Positions 28,092 through 39,141 of a stretch of DNA of 64,000 bases are shown piece after piece. The stretch comes from Bacillus sp. 7884-1. Its GTDB lineage: Bacteria > Bacillota > Bacilli > Bacillales > Cytobacillaceae. The stretch lies in the NCBI RefSeq assembly GCF_002272245.1, contig NZ_NPDD01000063.1, positions 1-64,000 of the forward strand. Reading direction: 5' to 3'. Within the stretch, counting starts at the first letter, position 1; every line of letters starts with the position of its first letter. The notes under the pieces were generated by a model. That model saw nothing but the letters and a program-made list of their open reading frames with translations, was not told where the DNA came from and did not search any database. Position numbers and translations under genes: made by a program.

Positions 28092-29039
28092 TTATAATGC
28101 AGCTTCGATTTCTTCAGCCATAAGTTTTACAGATTGTAGTCCGCCTCCGCTTAGGTACCAAGCATCTGGATCTAAGTAGATGATTTTATTTTCTTTGAAG
28201 GCAGTTGTCTTTTTGACAAGTTCATTTTCAATTACTTTTTCAGCACCGGCTTCGCCGCCTACTGCTGTGTTACGGTCAATGACAAACAATACGTCTGGAT
28301 TTGTCTCCATAATGTATTCCATGGTAATGCTTTGACCATGCGTTGATACTTCAATTTTCTCATCTGCTGCTCCGAAACCAAATACATCATGAATGACGCC
28401 AAAACGTGAGCTTGGTCCATAGGCACTTACTTTTCCTTCATTTGCTAAGACGATTAACCCTTTTTTATCAAGTGCAGAAGCTTTTTTATTTAACTCATCA
28501 ACACTTGCTTTAATCTCTTCTATTCTGCTAGCCACTTCATCCTTCTTGTCAAAAATTTCACCAACAAGGTTCATGTTTTTCTCAAATGACTCCATGTATT
28601 TTGTATAATCTAATTCCACATAAACAGTTGGAGCAATTTCTGCAAACTGTTCGTATAATTCAGCTTGGCGCGTAGTGATGAAAATAACATCCGGCTGCAT
28701 CGCATGAATCGCTTCAAAATCAGGCTCTTTTAAGCTTCCAACGTTCGTATATCCTTCACCAGCGTATTTTTCTAAGTAGGCAGGGACTGCTGTCTGTGGA
28801 ACTCCAATTACTTCCACACCAAGTTCATCTAGTGTATCTAAAATTCCAAAGTCAAAAACAACTATTTTCTCTGGATTTTTGTCAATTTCCACCTTGCCAT
28901 ACTTATGTTCAATCGTCATTTTTTCAGCCGCTGCAGGTTTTGCATCGGTTGTTTCTGTTTTGCTTTCTTCCTTTGACCCACAAGCTGCTAATAATAAAAT
29001 CATTGATGCCATTAAAACTAAAAAACTCCACTTTTTCAT
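28092..29039 (-). CDS. yclQ: Siderophore-binding lipoprotein, YclQ-like
   Basis: 315 residues. The lipobox LLAACG gives a lipid-anchored solute receptor of the FepB/FhuD class. Blocks such as VVFDFGILDTLDELG, VGSLKEPDFEAI, FGVIHDVFGFG, STHGQSI and DAWYLSGGGLQSV match B. subtilis YclQ, the petrobactin receptor, as I remember it. It captures the ferric siderophore and delivers it to YclN/YclO. The ATG at 29039 is chosen because AAAAGGAGAG is upstream and the signal peptide begins MKKW. Fourth gene of the operon. Confidence 0.9.
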   Translation of the reverse strand: MKKWSFLVLMASMILLLAACGSKEESKTETTDAKPAAAEKMTIEHKYGKVEIDKNPEKIVVFDFGILDTLDELGVEVIGVPQTAVPAYLEKYAGEGYTNVGSLKEPDFEAIHAMQPDVIFITTRQAELYEQFAEIAPTVYVELDYTKYMESFEKNMNLVGEIFDKKDEVASRIEEIKASVDELNKKASALDKKGLIVLANEGKVSAYGPSSRFGVIHDVFGFGAADEKIEVSTHGQSITMEYIMETNPDVLFVIDRNTAVGGEAGAEKVIENELVKKTTAFKENKIIYLDPDAWYLSGGGLQSVKLMAEEIEAAL

Positions 29040-29058
29040 CCCTAAATCTCTCCTTTTT

Positions 29059-29820
29059 TCATGAGCTAAAATAAACACAAATTCTGCAGCCATCCATTTT
29101 CTGAATGGGAATATCCATATCGTAAATCTCTTTTAATGCGGCTGATTCAATAATTTCTTCTGTAGGTCCATCTTTCACAACCTTACCATCCTTCATCGCT
29201 ACAATACGATCGGAGTAAACAGACGCAAAGTTGATATCATGAAGCACGATGACAACAGTTTTACCAAGCTCATCAACCAGACGGCGCAGTATTTTCATAA
29301 TTTGAACGGAATGCTTCATATCTAAATTGTTTAAGGGTTCATCAAGCAAAATGTACTCTGTATCCTGAGCGATAACCATCGCGATAAATGCGCGCTGCCT
29401 TTGACCACCTGATAACTCATCTAAAAAGTTATCCTGCATATCGGTTAGGTGCATATATTCAAGCGATTGCTCAACCATCCGTTCGTCTTCTTCTGTTAAT
29501 CGTCCCTTAGAATAAGGAAAACGTCCGAAGGATACTAGTTCACGAATCGTCAAACGAACATTCATGTAATTGGACTGTTTTAAAATCGAAACCTTCTTGG
29601 CAAAATCATTAGACTTCATCTTTTTCACATCAAATTTGTCAATCAGCACTTCACCAGTATCTGAATCAAGAAGACGGCTTACCATTGATAGTAAAGTCGA
29701 TTTGCCTGCTCCATTTGGACCAATAAAGCTCGTGATTTTCCGCGGCTGAATATCAACGGTTACATCCTCAACGACCGACTTTTTACCATATAACTTTGAC
29801 AAAGCTCGGACCTGTATCAT
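29059..29820 (-). CDS. yclP: Siderophore ABC transporter ATPase, YclP-like
   Basis: 253 residues. Walker A GPNGAGKST, Q loop, signature LSGGQRQRA, Walker B YILLDEPLNNLD and the switch His in VLHDINFA are intact. It powers import of the ferric siderophore through the YclN/YclO pore. The start overlaps the permease gene by four bases (ATGA), so it is translationally coupled. Confidence 0.93.
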   Translation of the reverse strand: MIQVRALSKLYGKKSVVEDVTVDIQPRKITSFIGPNGAGKSTLLSMVSRLLDSDTGEVLIDKFDVKKMKSNDFAKKVSILKQSNYMNVRLTIRELVSFGRFPYSKGRLTEEDERMVEQSLEYMHLTDMQDNFLDELSGGQRQRAFIAMVIAQDTEYILLDEPLNNLDMKHSVQIMKILRRLVDELGKTVVIVLHDINFASVYSDRIVAMKDGKVVKDGPTEEIIESAALKEIYDMDIPIQKMDGCRICVYFSS

Positions 29821-30767
29821 GCAGCTTTCCTCTCCTTTAGAAGTAAATAGATGAAGTACACTCCACCAATAAAGTTAATAATGACACTTAGCGTTGTTGA
29901 AAAAGTAAAGACTCTTTCAACCACCCATTGTCCGCCAACCAGGGCGATGATACTCATAAGAATCGAGCCCGTTATCAGGGTGGTATGTTTGTATGTTTTG
30001 AAAAATTGATAAGATAGATTGGCTACAATTAATCCGAAAAAGGTAATCGGTCCTACCAATGCAGTTGAAATTGAAATGAAAACTGCAACAATTACAAGCA
30101 TTTTCTTGACAATCGAATCATACGGAACCCCTAAATTAATCGCTGTATCCCTGCCTAAAGACAAGACGTCTAAATACCTTAAAAAACGCCATGCATATAT
30201 CATCACAAGGGTAACGATGATAATAGCCAGCCAGACTAAGTCTGAATTAATATTATTAAAACTCGCAAACATGCGGTCTTGAACAATCTGAAATTCATTT
30301 GGATCAATCAACACTTGGAAAAAAGTAGAGATACTAGAGAAAAACGTTCCTACAATGATTCCCACAAGTAATAAAAAGTAGATTGGCTGACTGCCCTTTT
30401 TAAATAGAAACTTATATAAAAAGAGTGCAAATACGATCATTACGACAACAGAGAGTAAAAAATTCACCTGTTTATTGACGATAAACATATGACCGGAGCC
30501 CAAAAAGAAAATAATTAATGTTTGTAAGAGCATGTATAGGGAATCCAATCCCATGATGCTCGGTGTTAAGATTTTATTATGGGTAATCGTCTGAAACACA
30601 ACCGTTGCATAAGCGATTGTTACACCTGTTAAAACCATTGCCAGCACTTTTATCGTTCGTTTTGGCAGGGCGTATCCAAAGCTGCCGTTTAAATCATGAA
30701 ATAAATAGATGGCACAAGCTCCCGCAGCGATCAGTGCGAGTATGACCAATTTTAATGAGTTACGCAT
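29817..30767 (-). CDS. yclO: Siderophore ABC permease, YclO-like
   Basis: 316 residues, about eight to nine membrane helices of the FecCD family. The coupling-helix region is near GRDTAINLGVPYDSI, followed by GPITFFGLIVANLSYQFF. It pairs with YclN as the heterodimeric channel. It overlaps the yclN-like gene by eight bases and yclP by four. Confidence 0.92.
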   Translation of the reverse strand: MRNSLKLVILALIAAGACAIYLFHDLNGSFGYALPKRTIKVLAMVLTGVTIAYATVVFQTITHNKILTPSIMGLDSLYMLLQTLIIFFLGSGHMFIVNKQVNFLLSVVVMIVFALFLYKFLFKKGSQPIYFLLLVGIIVGTFFSSISTFFQVLIDPNEFQIVQDRMFASFNNINSDLVWLAIIIVTLVMIYAWRFLRYLDVLSLGRDTAINLGVPYDSIVKKMLVIVAVFISISTALVGPITFFGLIVANLSYQFFKTYKHTTLITGSILMSIIALVGGQWVVERVFTFSTTLSVIINFIGGVYFIYLLLKERKAA

Positions 30768-31713
30768 ATGCCTTCCTCCGGAACAGTAAGAATAAGAAAA
30801 TTCCGCTTCCGATTACACCAACCATGAGACTGATCGAAATCTCATATGGATAAATGAGCACCCGGCCCAATATATCGCAAATCAGAAGGAATATAGCTCC
30901 TAGGAGTGCGGTATGCGGCAATGTTTTTTGTAAATGATCGCCTTTGAAAATGGATATGATATTCGGAATAATCAAGCCTAAAAACGGAATGATTCCCACT
31001 GTCAAAACAACCGTCGTGGTCACCAGTGCAACCAATATCAGACCAATATTTACAATCCGGCGATAAGCAAGCCCAAGATTTTTTGAAAAGTCCTCACCCA
31101 TACCAGCCACAGTGAAACGGTTAGCATAGAAATAAGCAATGATTAATATCGGTAGACTTATGTAAAGGAGTTCATATCTTCCCTTCATAATCATTGAAAA
31201 ATCACCCTGAAGCCAAGCAGACATATTTTGAATGACGTCAGCACGATACGCGAAAAAAGTCGTTACAGAGGACAAAATATTCCCAAACATCAACCCAACA
31301 AGCGGGATGAAAATAGCATCTTTAAACTTGATTCGATCAAGAATTTGCATAAACAAAAATGTACCTGCAAGTGCAAAAGCAAAGGCTACTGCCATTTTTT
31401 CAAGCATGGTTGCATTTGCAAACAACAGCATAGAAACAAGGATACCAAGCCTTGTTGCGTCAAGAGTTCCTGCCGTCGTCGGTGAAACAAATTTGTTTCG
31501 GCTGAGCTGTTGCATAATCAAACCTGCAATACTCATCCCAGCTCCTGCAAGCAGGATTGCTATTAGCCTTGGCAGTCGGCTGATAAGGAAAATCTGGGTC
31601 TCCTCAGATTGGAAATCTAACAAGTCCAATGGTGATATACTGCTGACCCCAACAAACAAGGAAACAGCAGATAAGAGTATTAATCCTAGTAGTAAATATC
31701 TTTTCTTCATCAT
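30760..31713 (-). CDS. yclN: Siderophore ABC permease, YclN-like
   Basis: 317 residues, FecCD family, about nine helices. Visible features are RLPRLIAILLAGAGMSIAGL near the N-terminus and GEDFSKNLGLAYRRI before the GIIPFLGLIIPNI segment. It is the first gene of the operon. The ATG at 31713 is used (GGGGA upstream; a second ATG follows at once). A good Fur box lies about 80 bp upstream. Confidence 0.92.
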   Translation of the reverse strand: MMKKRYLLLGLILLSAVSLFVGVSSISPLDLLDFQSEETQIFLISRLPRLIAILLAGAGMSIAGLIMQQLSRNKFVSPTTAGTLDATRLGILVSMLLFANATMLEKMAVAFAFALAGTFLFMQILDRIKFKDAIFIPLVGLMFGNILSSVTTFFAYRADVIQNMSAWLQGDFSMIMKGRYELLYISLPILIIAYFYANRFTVAGMGEDFSKNLGLAYRRIVNIGLILVALVTTTVVLTVGIIPFLGLIIPNIISIFKGDHLQKTLPHTALLGAIFLLICDILGRVLIYPYEISISLMVGVIGSGIFLFLLFRRKAYA

Positions 31714-32097
31714 CGCAGTCCCCAACATTTCTATTATTCTCTCATTCTCATTCTAATCGAGAATTCTTATCACTTAGAAACAAAAATAAATGACATTGAA
31801 AATCATTATCAACGTCCTATACATTTGATTATAAACAGTGTAATTTGTATAGTCAATAAACAATCAAGAACTATTTTCACTGATTTCTGAATAATTTGTG
31901 ACATAAATATGGTTTTAACCTCGTAAATCTTCAATAGAGTGCTTTACCTTAAGGATTAAAATACTATTTGGAGGAGAAATCCCTTTCAATGGGGAATTAG
32001 TAATAATTAGGTAAAAAGTAATAGCTTAGCCTCAGCGGTCACTGCATTAATTTCTAGAATCTTAGATAGTTAGAGATATAGAAAAGGAGCTCCTTAC
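31714..32097. other. Intergenic region between yclN and the C39 peptidase gene
   Basis: It contains the Fur box at 31792-31810 and, from about 31900, a possible structured leader of the C39 gene: GAAATCCCTTTCAATGGGGAATTAG with a CCC/GGGG hairpin, preceded by TTGGAGGAG, then AGCCTCAGCGGTCACTGC. I cannot assign it to a known riboswitch class. Confidence 0.45.
31792..31810 (-). promoter_or_regulatory. Fur box upstream of the yclNOPQ-like operon
   Basis: GACATTGAAAATCATTATC matches the 19-bp Fur consensus GATAATGATAATCATTATC at 16 of 19 positions. Binding by Fe-Fur would repress the operon when iron is plentiful. Confidence 0.75.
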
Positions 32098-32841
32098 ATG
32101 AAAAATCATCAACCCCCAAAAATAGCATTGGTAAGCCTCCTTTTAATCTTTCCCATCTACTATGCTTCTATCTCTCCGATAAAAACGAGCGCAGAATATA
32201 AATCGGATGTTCACGTGGATCGGACAGTAGTTGTATATCAAAAGGGGACCCTTATGAAAGAAAGCATATTATTATCCGTTCCAGCATTAATGCAATTTCC
32301 TGAACTTCCACGTGGCTGTGAAGTGACCAGCCTGGCAATGTTATTAAATTTTGCAGGAGTTCCAGTTGACAAGCTCACTCTTGCAGATGAAATACCCAAG
32401 GTACCCTATCTAAGTGATGGCATTTATGGAAATCCCCATCAAGGATTTGTCGGCAATATGTACACCTATAATGAACCTGGATTAGGTGTTTATCATGAGG
32501 TCATCGAGGACCTTGCAAATCAATACCTCCCGAACCAAATTGATAATATAACCGGAGATCCTTTTTCTTCTGTGCAAAAAAAGCTTAACGATGGTAAACC
32601 CGTTTGGGTGATAGTCGGCAGCACATATACCTATTTACCGGAGAAACACTGGGTAACTTGGACTACAAATGAGGGTGAAATCAAAATCACGCGAAAAGTC
32701 CATTCGGTCCTTGTAACGGGGTATGATGAAAACCATGTGTATTTTAATGATCCCTTTTTTCCCGACCAAAATAGATCTGCAGATTTTCAAAACTTTGTAA
32801 CAAGCTGGGCCCAATTCGGAAGCCAGGCTATAACGTATTGA
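32098..32841 (+). CDS. Secreted C39-like cysteine peptidase
   Basis: 247 residues. A hydrophobic N-terminal segment (IALVSLLLIFPIYYASIS) serves as signal or anchor. The Peptidase_C39_2 domain has the catalytic Cys in LPRGCEVTSLAMLL, His in KVHSVLVTGYD and Asp in VYFNDPFF. It resembles B. subtilis YvpB, of unknown substrate, acting outside the cell. AAAAGGAG precedes the ATG. It ends in a terminator made from the GTGCCTGTCACC core. Confidence 0.85.
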   Translation: MKNHQPPKIALVSLLLIFPIYYASISPIKTSAEYKSDVHVDRTVVVYQKGTLMKESILLSVPALMQFPELPRGCEVTSLAMLLNFAGVPVDKLTLADEIPKVPYLSDGIYGNPHQGFVGNMYTYNEPGLGVYHEVIEDLANQYLPNQIDNITGDPFSSVQKKLNDGKPVWVIVGSTYTYLPEKHWVTWTTNEGEIKITRKVHSVLVTGYDENHVYFNDPFFPDQNRSADFQNFVTSWAQFGSQAITY

Positions 32842-32874: not shown

Positions 32875-32940
32875 GTCTATTTTTTCTTGATAATGGAAAA
32901 CCTAGCAATGGATATAATTTTTAGAAAGGAGTGATTTTTC

Positions 32941-33414
32941 TTGGAAGCAAACTTGAAAGTTGGGGACATGGCCCCTGAATTTTCATTACCCGCAACCACA
33001 AAGGACCCCCTATCTCTTTCAGAGTATCGAGGAAAGATGAATCTGGTGGTTGCTTTTTATGGAATGGATTTTACTCCAGGCTGAATTAAAGAAATCGCCT
33101 CTTGGAAAGAGGACTACAAAAGATTTGAACAGTTAGGTGCAGAGGTGATTGGAATCAGTGCCGACCATATTCACTCGCACCGAGTTTTTGCTGCCAGTAT
33201 GGGGACATTGCCCTATCCTCTAGCTTCCGATTGGAAGAGGCAGACAATCAAAGATTACAAGGTGTTTAACGAAAAAGGTGAAGTCGCCATCCGCTCCGTC
33301 TTTGTTATCAATAGAGATGGAATGATCACCTATATCAACACTTCCTTTAAAGCAGATAAAAAAGAGGATTACGAAGCTGTATTTTCAGAGCTTGAAAAGT
33401 TAACTACGCATTAA
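32941..33414 (+). CDS. Peroxiredoxin with in-frame TGA at the peroxidatic Cys (candidate selenoprotein)
   Basis: Read through one TGA at codon 48 (33082-33084), the frame encodes 157 residues of an AhpC/TSA-Bcp-type peroxiredoxin: VGDMAPEFSLPATT, VVAFYGMDFTPG, then TGA, then IKEIASWKEDYKRFEQLGAE, GISADHIHSHRVFA and the catalytic-Arg region IRSVFVINRDG. TGA stands exactly where the family has its peroxidatic Cys (TPGC), giving TxxU; no other Cys is present. A SECIS-like hairpin begins 13 bases after the TGA. TTG start with AAAGGAG nine bases upstream. Nothing else is broken. If Sec is inserted it is a 1-Sec peroxide reductase; otherwise a pseudogene with one nonsense mutation. I favour the selenoprotein. 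Automatic callers see only a fragment from about 33145. Confidence 0.72.
33098..33112 (+). promoter_or_regulatory. SECIS-like hairpin downstream of the TGA
   Basis: CCTCTT-GGA-AAGAGG: a 6-bp stem with a 3-base loop whose first two bases are G. The apical loop starts 20 bases after the TGA. Published models of bacterial SECIS ask for a small apical loop with G in the first two positions at about 16-37 bases from UGA, so this fits. It lies inside the coding sequence, as expected for bacteria. Confidence 0.6.
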
Positions 33415-33416
33415 AC

Positions 33417-33450
33417 GAAAACATCTCCCGATTATTCGAGAGATGTTTTA
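33417..33450. terminator. Bidirectional terminator
   Basis: AAAACATCTCCCGA pairs with TTCGAGAGATGTTTT. Shared by the peroxiredoxin gene and the convergent SMR pair. Confidence 0.8.
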
Positions 33451-33765
33451 TTAATGAACGAGCTTTAAACCCACGACTGAGAAAATAATTCCTAGAATAC
33501 ACGCTGTTCGAAGCCAGCTTTTTGATTCCTTAAAGAATACCATTCCAACAACTGCTGCCCCAACCGTTCCAATCCCTGTCCATACGGCATAGGCCGTTGA
33601 TAGCGGTATCGTTTCCATTGCTTGAACGAGCAGCTGGAAACTCATAATAAATCCTCCAATTAGTATGAGATAATTCACAATGTTACCTTTATCGGCCGTT
33701 CTTTTCAAACCGATAACCCCAACAACTTCAAAACATCCTCCTAAAATAAGCATCAGCCAATCCAT
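33451..33765 (-). CDS. SMR family efflux protein, YkkD-like subunit
   Basis: 104 residues, four membrane helices. The essential Glu is in FEVVGVIGLK (about residue 13) and the signature STAYAVWTGIGTVGAAVVGM is intact. It overlaps the next SMR gene by one base (TAATG), so the two probably form a heterodimeric small multidrug or guanidinium-type exporter, as YkkCD and EbrAB do. Confidence 0.88.
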   Translation of the reverse strand: MDWLMLILGGCFEVVGVIGLKRTADKGNIVNYLILIGGFIMSFQLLVQAMETIPLSTAYAVWTGIGTVGAAVVGMVFFKESKSWLRTACILGIIFSVVGLKLVH

Positions 33766-34127
33766 TAAATCTCACCTTCCTTATTTGTTAATTTCAAGCC
33801 AATAATACAAGCCAACAGTAATAAAATAAGGAGTATTCTTAATGGACTGACAGAGCCATTTTCAAAGATAACCTCGACAATGACAGTTCCTATAGTACCA
33901 ATCCCGGCAAAAACAGCGTATACCGTCCCAACCGGAATAACTCTTGTAGCTCTAATAATTAAATCAAAACTTAATAAAATGGCTATAAGAACAACAAGGG
34001 AAGGAACTTCATCATATTTAAACCCGCTTGCCCAGACCACCTCAAGAAATCCTGCAATTATAACGTACAACCATGCTTTGGATTCACTCGCTGTATTTGA
34101 ATTTGTTATTGTTTTTGATTCATTCAT
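33765..34127 (-). CDS. SMR family efflux protein, YkkC-like subunit
   Basis: 120 residues, four helices after a polar N-terminal extension of about 17 residues rich in Ser, Thr and Asn. The key Glu is in LEVVWASGFK; the loop PVGTVYAVFAGIGTIGTV is the family signature. No guanidine riboswitch is visible in the roughly 90 bases between it and the divergent ABC gene, so control is unclear. The ribosome binding site is weak (AGAGGAAAT). Confidence 0.85.
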   Translation of the reverse strand: MNESKTITNSNTASESKAWLYVIIAGFLEVVWASGFKYDEVPSLVVLIAILLSFDLIIRATRVIPVGTVYAVFAGIGTIGTVIVEVIFENGSVSPLRILLILLLLACIIGLKLTNKEGEI

Positions 34128-37319: not shown

Positions 37320-37611
37320 CTTATTCCTCCCTAAGAACGTTATAAAGTTATTTTTGCCAAAATTCTGCATAATCATATCATATTGGAAAATTTATTTCAG
37401 CGGAATACCAAGGTTTCAGAAAATTAATATTTATTTCTCTACTATTAGTTGATAGAATTGTAGAGTTTTGATAAGTTTAACGAATTTCCGAAAGAATTCC
37501 CCTTCCTCAAGCTCAAGGATAGGGAGGGGATGAATTTCGGTTAGCGTATGCCGAAGGCTTTGCTTTGTGTTCTTCACTGCTCAGTCGTATAATAAAATAG
37601 GGGTTAAAACA

Positions 37612-38010
37612 GTGAAATTAGACACAAATAATCATTCAGTATTCAAGTTAAATTATCACCTTATCATGGTTGTGAAGTATCGAAGAAGTGTAATTGATGA
37701 TACTATTTCAACAAGATTAAAAACCATATTTGAAAATATTGGGGAAAAGTATCATATTACTATTAAAGAATGGAATCACGATATTGACCACGTTCATGTT
37801 CTTATTACAGCTAAGCCTAATACAGAGCTTTCAAAATTCATTAATGCTTATAAAAGTGCCAGTTCAAGAAAGATTAAAAATGAATTTCCTAAAATCAGAC
37901 AGAAATTATGGAAAGAATACTTTTGGTCTCAAAGCTATTGCCTGCTAACTGTAGGTGGAGCACCGTTAGGAATTCTAAAACAATATATTGAAACGCAAGG
38001 ACAAAAATAA
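37612..38010 (+). CDS. tnpA: IS200/IS605 transposase TnpA (Y1 HUH)
   Basis: 132 residues. The HUH motif is HVH (His60-His62) and the catalytic tyrosine is probably Tyr125 in LKQYIETQ. SQSYCLLTVGG and WNHDIDHVHVLI are family hallmarks. It cuts and joins single-stranded DNA at the element ends. The GTG at 37612 is chosen (AGGGG upstream); it begins MKLDTNNHSVF, the usual start of these proteins. No disruption, so it may be active. Confidence 0.93.
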   Translation: MKLDTNNHSVFKLNYHLIMVVKYRRSVIDDTISTRLKTIFENIGEKYHITIKEWNHDIDHVHVLITAKPNTELSKFINAYKSASSRKIKNEFPKIRQKLWKEYFWSQSYCLLTVGGAPLGILKQYIETQGQK

Positions 38011-38025
38011 CTGGAGGTGATGACA

Positions 38026-39141
38026 GTGTTGTTGAATCAAAAACACGAGATTTTTCCAACAGAAAAACAAAGAGAAATGTTAGACCGTTGGCTACAATTC
38101 TGTCGTCAAACCTACAATTCTGCACTTCTAGACAAAGAACGCAAATATAAAAAAGCCAAAGAAAAATACAATCGATACGACATGCAAAGACAACAAACTT
38201 CTGATAAGAAGAAATATCCGTTTCTAAAAGAAGTACCTTCTCAACTTATACAGGAAGTTTTTGTACGGTTAAAAAAGGCGTTTGATAATTTCTTTCGTAA
38301 AGATGCAAAATATCCCAAACAAAAAAAGTATAAAGATTATACGAGTATGACGTTTCCTCAATTTGGATCCAATAATAAGGGCAAAAGGATGGCCATGTCT
38401 TTTTCTGATAATAGCAAGCTATACAATACAAAACTAGGCAAAATAGATATTCTGTTTCATAGACCCATAGAAGGAACAATCAAACAACTTATCCTCAAAC
38501 GTCAAGGTAAAAGATGGTACGCTATTTTCTGTGTCGAAAGACTAGCGATATCACCTATTATTGATACGAGTAACTCAATAGGAATTGACGTTGGACTAAA
38601 TAAGTATGCCGTTCTTTCTAACGGCTTAGAGTACGAGAATCCTAGGTTTCTTCGCAAGAAAGAAAAAAAACTAAAGAAAGCACAACGCACCCTTTCTAAA
38701 AAGAAAAAAGGTTCTGCCAACTACATCAAACAGGTACAACGAATTCGACAATTACATGAGAAAGTAGCAAACCAACGCAAAGATTTTCTTCATAAACTAA
38801 GCTACAACCTATCGAAAGACTATTCAGTTATTTCTGTAGAAAATCTAAATATCCGAAATATGGTTAGAAACAGAAAATTGTCAAAGTCTATTTCTGACTC
38901 CGGATGGGGTATGTTCCGTAATATGTTGGCATATAAATGCGAAAAGCATGGCGGTGTACTTATAAAAATAGAACCAAATTTCACTTCACAAGATTGTTCT
39001 TGTTGTGGCAATCGAGTAAAGAAATCCCTCTCCATTCGTACTCATGTCTGTACGAAATGCGGAACGGTATTAGATAGGGATTATAACGCAAGTCTGAACA
39101 TCTTACAGAGAGGTTTAGATGAATTGCTAGTGACAAACTAA
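38026..39141 (+). CDS. tnpB: TnpB, RNA-guided nuclease of IS605
   Basis: 371 residues. Split RuvC-like nuclease with Asp188 (GIDVGLNKYAV), Glu272 (ISVENLNI) and Asp352 (LDRDYNASLNIL), and a zinc ribbon with Cys324/Cys327 and Cys342/Cys345. All three acidic residues are present, so it should be active. TnpB proteins cut double-stranded DNA guided by an omega RNA from the element right end, next to a TAM such as TTGAT. The GTG at 38026 is preferred (GGAGG eight bases upstream). It follows tnpA by 15 bases. Confidence 0.92.
   Translation: MLLNQKHEIFPTEKQREMLDRWLQFCRQTYNSALLDKERKYKKAKEKYNRYDMQRQQTSDKKKYPFLKEVPSQLIQEVFVRLKKAFDNFFRKDAKYPKQKKYKDYTSMTFPQFGSNNKGKRMAMSFSDNSKLYNTKLGKIDILFHRPIEGTIKQLILKRQGKRWYAIFCVERLAISPIIDTSNSIGIDVGLNKYAVLSNGLEYENPRFLRKKEKKLKKAQRTLSKKKKGSANYIKQVQRIRQLHEKVANQRKDFLHKLSYNLSKDYSVISVENLNIRNMVRNRKLSKSISDSGWGMFRNMLAYKCEKHGGVLIKIEPNFTSQDCSCCGNRVKKSLSIRTHVCTKCGTVLDRDYNASLNILQRGLDELLVTN

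Follow-up and report, generated by a model that had tools for sequence, protein, structure and literature searches.

An in-frame TGA codon at the position where peroxiredoxins carry their catalytic cysteine leads to the question whether the gene around it encodes a selenoprotein or has been broken by a nonsense mutation. Such a frame lies in the window, that is, the whole stretch of 64,000 nucleotides of the soil bacillus Bacillus sp. 7884-1 that was analysed here; the host assembly comprises 6.0 Mb in 395 contigs. Four features describe the gene and its reading frame.

32925..32931, plus strand: ribosome-binding site AAAGGAG, read from the sequence
32941..33414, plus strand: Sec-containing peroxiredoxin gene with TTG start and TAA stop, 157 residues with the TGA read as Sec
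33082..33084, plus strand: UGA as codon 48, encoding selenocysteine as the peroxidatic residue (FTPGU), from reading and homologue alignment
33145..33414, plus strand: truncated open reading frame with GTG start, from the ORF list, not a gene of its own

The earlier note on this DNA had described a clean frame from the TTG with its AAAGGAG to a TAA at 33414, broken only at codon 48. Direct reading confirmed this description, with the stop codon at 33412-33414 and the single in-frame TGA at 33082-33084. Its further statements, that the TGA occupies the place of the peroxidatic cysteine, that the protein has no other cysteine and that ordinary gene calling would give a truncated frame near 33145, held as well: codon 48 aligns with the catalytic cysteine of Cys-type AhpC/TSA relatives, the 157-residue translation contains no cysteine residue, and the plain ORF list has the GTG frame 33145-33414. 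The product matches the Pfam family AhpC-TSA with 116.8 bits (cut-off 26). A sequencing error at codon 48 was considered and ruled out, because the TGA recurs in G134, a one-contig genome of the same species, and in the other homologues. A genome of the same genus (G119, L014) shares its protein with Neobacillus niacini MER TA 87 (L042), and the host is therefore probably a Neobacillus. Together with the results described below, the gene very probably encodes a peroxiredoxin with selenocysteine as the peroxidatic residue, its UGA being recoded via a hairpin and its reduction predicted to be external.

Close relatives were aligned at this codon, as the earlier note had proposed, and were found to carry TGA, neither TGC nor TGT. 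All 112 matches of at least 43% identity that cover the codon have the TGA (82 distinct genes, 12 Bacillales families in the order survey), and therefore no Cys orthologue was found in the clade among the matches at this level, the search patterns being without the Sec site. The best match covering the codon without TGA is 38.2% identical. In the family survey the gene was present in 50 of 193 genomes at E 1e-30 or better; TGA was seen in 51 of 51 places, three of which hold TAA besides, and it stands at the catalytic codon in each of the 31 places that were read. The order survey gave matches at 1e-22 in 55 of 397 genomes, with 60 places and 54 of them with TGA. Among these, the places of at least 43% identity were all read (32/32, 12 family labels) and all have TGA at the codon, four of the 22 other TGA places (36-41%) were read with the same outcome in 4/4, and the six places without TGA show 38-42% identity over shorter stretches.

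On GTDB r220 contigs, 49 of 75 loci give a match of at least 54% identity that spans the codon, and TGA stands there in every one of these. A profile search at phylum level yielded a match in 15 of 398 genomes, with 270 bits for the window itself and 129 bits for the next. Four of the 14 non-window genomes had a TGA and ten had none; among the eleven that were read, the codon was TGA in four and Cys in seven. An in-frame UGA thus stands where homologues carry cysteine, with TGT or TGC at the codon in distant paralogues as against TGA within the clade. In a tree of 44 sampled members the clade formed one group without a Cys member (support 100/99). A tree with the deeper Bacillota relative L192, a long-branched Sec sequence, did not separate a position inside the clade from one beside it. 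The gene is broken into two pieces in different frames in Neobacillus sp. SuZ13 (L089:5001-5467), and in Bacillus sp. AFS073361 it is down to a 34-codon end piece (L104:5001-5102). These copies suggest loss by decay rather than a swap to cysteine.

A candidate for a bSECIS element, the bacterial SECIS stem-loop, follows the TGA.

33098..33112, plus strand: bSECIS stem-loop CCTCTTGGAAAGAGG of six pairs, at +17 to +31 counted from the T of the TGA, from comparison
33104..33106, plus strand: apical loop GGA of the SECIS element, invariant in 83 of 83 sequences

In 77 of the 83 sequences this interval (+17 to +31) reads CCTCTTGGAAAGAGG, and the hairpin was also picked up as an inverted repeat by the repeat scan. 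The published bSECIS model has a stem of 4-16 pairs, a loop of 3-9 bases with a G in the first two, a distance of 16-37 nt from UGA to loop and an energy of -7.5 kcal/mol or less (PMC13188914, section 5). With six pairs and the GGA loop 19 nt from the UGA, the hairpin agrees with this model in spacing, stem, loop and G. Its energy of -6.4 kcal/mol misses the limit of -7.5, which counts against it; some relatives' hairpins reach this limit and others miss it, and a subset of bSECIS elements is stated in the same review to fail the model (PMC13188914). It also counts against the element that shuffled versions of the window's 60 bases starting at the TGA mostly fold just as well (z +0.64; 144 of 200). 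As the folding energy of the single sequence is not unusual, the SECIS claim rests on comparison.

The six pairs are kept in 81 of 82 genes, compared with 7.2% of draws in which synonymous codons were redrawn. Of the 498 pair cells of the 83 sequences, 496 hold standard pairs; with the partner shifted by 1-4 bases the number drops to 174-336. Codons 53-57 over the hairpin lose their synonymous freedom (Ser54 TCT in 79/81, Lys56 AAA in 80/82, Glu57 GAG in 79/81) and most other codons vary, but Glu51 outside the hairpin is nearly fixed too (GAA in 81/82), so the stem is not the sole region with constrained codons, a point against the element. Two-sided compensatory changes were found on four pairs, L192 included: L140 and L143 change at pairs 18-30 (C-G to U-A) and 21-27 (U-A to C-G), and the deeper relative L192 changes at 19-29, 20-28 and 21-27, with the outermost pair lost and the U-GGA-A apex kept. 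L148 and L169 have changes to wobble pairs, and L035 has lost only the outermost pair. Judged by this sequence comparison, the hairpin at 33098-33112 is a bacterial SECIS element.

A search for selA, selB, selC and selD, which the earlier note had named as a check with their absence speaking against a selenoprotein, found all four in the host genome: SelA with 562 bits (cut-off 268), SelB with 343 bits (cut-off 242), SelD with 402 bits (cut-off 125) and tRNA-Sec with 63 bits (cut-off 47) and the anticodon tca. The tRNA-Sec lies elsewhere in the genome; ARAGORN reported no tRNA in the window and Rfam gave no match at gathering scores in the 64 kb. At least three further host genes have UGA at Sec sites, namely SelD (AGUGCKIG) and two formate dehydrogenase-like genes with UGA before His, one over and one below the model cut-off. 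The hairpin loop starts at +21 in SelD, +22 in both formate dehydrogenase genes and +23 in the peroxiredoxin gene, and one SelB could serve all of these hairpins. The earlier remark that Bacillaceae rarely use selenocysteine proved wrong for the surveyed family, in which tRNA-Sec was found in 172 of 193 genomes and SelB over its cut-off in 170 of 193; in the 'relatives' set of 40 genomes, the window's own included, 34 have SelA. The gene is present in 49 of 172 genomes with tRNA-Sec and in 1 of 21 without (Fisher p 0.012, or 0.0019 without G079, shared ancestry being ignored in both). The exception, the sole one of 50 gene-bearing family genomes without tRNA-Sec, counts against the selenoprotein reading and is G079, which is 66% complete. 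In the host genome the tRNA-Sec gene has a phage-type integrase gene (PF00589) some 120 bases away (L007:188-1378 and 1497-1593; G000:C254), so that tRNA-Sec looks like an integration site, and two or three tRNA-Sec matches were seen in several relatives.

An AlphaFold model of the protein, with residue 48 modelled as Cys, has a mean pLDDT of 95.5 and a peroxiredoxin fold, in which this residue sits close to the beginning of helix 46-57. The protein is accordingly predicted from the model to have the fold of a BCP/AhpE-type peroxiredoxin with Sec48 near the helix N-terminus. The best PDB match is Bcp4 of Sulfolobus (3hjp; TM 0.89, 30% identity), followed by the 1-Cys peroxiredoxin AhpE of Mycobacterium tuberculosis (1xxu, 4x0x), which is similar in fold (TM 0.87-0.89 by query length) and in length and has 28-29% identity to the window protein; both are Cys and not Sec enzymes, AhpE also by its name. 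A threonine and an arginine have active-site roles in peroxiredoxins. Arg118 is invariant and Thr45 nearly invariant in an alignment of 50 rows, and both are invariant in 30 rows. The protein thus has the marks of the family in its AhpC-TSA/Redoxin domain over the cut-off, its fold and its active-site Thr and Arg. The peroxiredoxin motif is given with a proline, PxxxTxxU, in PMC13188914; the window protein has Gly41 instead, which counts against membership.

Among the 82 distinct genes, which include the partial ones L083 and L089, this motif position is Gly in 52 and Pro in 30. The Gly-type genes lack cysteine in 48 of 52 cases, and the other four have it at scattered places. Among the Pro-type genes, 25 of 30 have cysteine, 22 of these at +72 and/or +103 from Sec, and five have none. 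The tree places its 16 Gly-type genes in one group (support 98/91), and the resolving cysteine appears to have been lost together with the proline change on one branch. For the Gly branch without cysteine, the sequences imply an enzyme with one selenium that would be reduced from outside.

The surroundings of the gene were also inspected. Just 3' of the stop codon lies a possible terminator.

33418..33449, strand not assigned: inverted repeat, perhaps a terminator used by both the gene and the convergent SMR genes, from folding

The inverted-repeat scan did not call this repeat, and the sigma-70 promoter scan gave no match. The convergent genes encode two small multidrug resistance-family proteins (PF00893; window 33451-34127, minus strand). 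An ABC uptake system with a PF01497 binding protein, by eye probably for ferric siderophores, lies at window 28092-31728; its ORF groups occur in 12 to 16 of 49 loci without a constant place. An IS200/IS605-type pair of a Y1 transposase and TnpB (PF01797, PF01385, PF07282) occupies window 37567-39141. Neighbouring ORF groups, the gene itself aside, each occur in at most 16 of the 49 loci, so that none of them stood out as an operon partner.

Further Sec peroxiredoxins were seen in the course of the surveys. A second, divergent TGA peroxiredoxin (FTFVU-PTE) lies downstream of the first in three loci (L070:6884-7444, L075:5643-6203 and L078:5647-6207), with the TGA at the catalytic codon and its own stem-loop after it; the copy in L078 scores 166.7 bits to PrxU, under the cut-off of 270. 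Loci L163-L166 from other Bacillales families hold another group (TPVU-GAQMPSYE), which has 22 TGA places in 397 genomes and is 36-41% identical to the window protein. In L094-L097 and L099, from Acidobacteria MAGs, a Sec peroxiredoxin (TGGU) has a Cys peroxiredoxin beside it on the other strand.

An ordinary Cys peroxiredoxin gene hit by a random nonsense mutation would also have a stop codon inside the frame and leave the plain ORF list with a truncated part only, and the losses in L089 and L104 show that relatives do lose the gene. Yet the same TGA is present in 82 of 82 distinct genes of at least 43% identity, protein and synonymous positions are constrained 3' of it, and the genome has the Sec machinery, which makes a pseudogene extremely improbable. 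For a single codon the sequence alone would equally be compatible with readthrough of the UGA by another tRNA, one for Trp or a near-cognate, without selenocysteine. Against this, codon 48 is the catalytic cysteine position of the Cys-type relatives, the hairpin shows compensatory changes at bSECIS spacing, and the presence of the gene follows tRNA-Sec. Moreover, the upstream gene, of a C39-like peptidase family, terminates in TGA at 32839-32841, so TGA also serves as a stop here. Readthrough of this kind can hardly be the explanation.

The protein might, on the other hand, be a selenoprotein whose main function is not peroxide scavenging, e.g. a sensor or a thiol-disulfide enzyme. The missing motif proline and cysteine in the window's branch would suit such a function, as would the result that no conserved partner gene was found among the loci, but Thr45, residue 48, Arg118 and the whole fold are kept and the best fold matches are peroxiredoxins, so that it appears unlikely. 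The earlier proposal of a selenoprotein is therefore supported by the machinery, by the TGA in relatives and by the compensatory changes in the hairpin 3' of it.

For the Sec peroxiredoxin, the anatomy and the comparison suggest that SelB with Sec-tRNA(Sec) would bind the hairpin at 33098-33112 and recode the UGA at 33082. From knowledge of the family, the selenolate of Sec48 is predicted to attack H2O2 or an organic hydroperoxide, giving a selenenic acid. Because the protein has no cysteine, an external reductant would have to act on this selenenic acid, most likely a low-molecular-weight thiol (bacillithiol, then bacilliredoxin) or thioredoxin. Bacillithiol occurs in bacilli, and mycothiol is named in a PDB title among the structural matches; by analogy with AhpE and mycothiol, bacillithiol as the reductant is a guess. 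A tentative and rather doubtful extension is that bacilli hold an obligate-Sec lineage, whose ancestor resolved the Sec with its own cysteine (+72, +103) and whose Neobacillus/Mesobacillus branch lost cysteine and motif proline to become a Cys-free selenoperoxidase that needs an outside thiol, e.g. bacillithiol, a step that would be closed to a Cys enzyme.

Sec-containing peroxiredoxins are known in other bacteria, as the earlier note had stated. Tables in PMC9312934 and PMC13188914 have those with TxxU as an established selenoprotein family, and Table 3 of PMC5029168 counts 91 proteins in 78 organisms. For Bacillales, Table 2 of PMC1794560 counts three selenoproteins, and a Sec-containing PrxU is named for Sulfobacillus in a passage of PMC7409299. 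The window's clade shares with the TxxU family the AhpC-TSA domain, Sec at the peroxidatic position and the stem-loop after the UGA. It differs in belonging to Bacillales, in the replacement of the motif Pro by Gly on the branch of the window protein, in the absence of cysteine from the window protein and in having no Cys orthologue found in the clade. PrxU (NF040737) is likewise a peroxiredoxin model and the best NCBIfam match, but the window protein reaches 73.6 bits against a cut-off of 270 and has 157 residues against 233 model positions. Thiol peroxidase BCP (NF006960) gives 67.2 bits, below its cut-off of 140, and the window protein stays under the cut-off of every NCBIfam model. Among the matches listed in the literature on Bacillales selenoproteins, no title or abstract concerned this gene, and Bacillales members of the known family may already stand in supplements. 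The Bacillales clade and its Gly-for-Pro branch with cysteine nearly always absent look new; the gene itself is a well-supported member of the known Sec peroxiredoxin family with a variant active site and not a new kind of protein.

The finding adds a predicted antioxidant selenoprotein, missed by plain ORF calling, to many spore-formers, which are mostly aerobic or facultative. The constant UGGAA apex and the compensatory stem of the SECIS element provide a clear signature by which further genes of this type can be found. According to a 2026 review (PMC13188914, section 10), selenoproteins are rarely kept by aerobic bacteria, whereas in an earlier survey the users of Sec were divided between aerobes and anaerobes (PMC5029168). 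The surveyed family, for its part, has nearly universal Sec machinery. With no Cys form found, and with cysteine and motif proline apparently lost along one branch, the clade allows the question why selenocysteine is kept to be asked directly.
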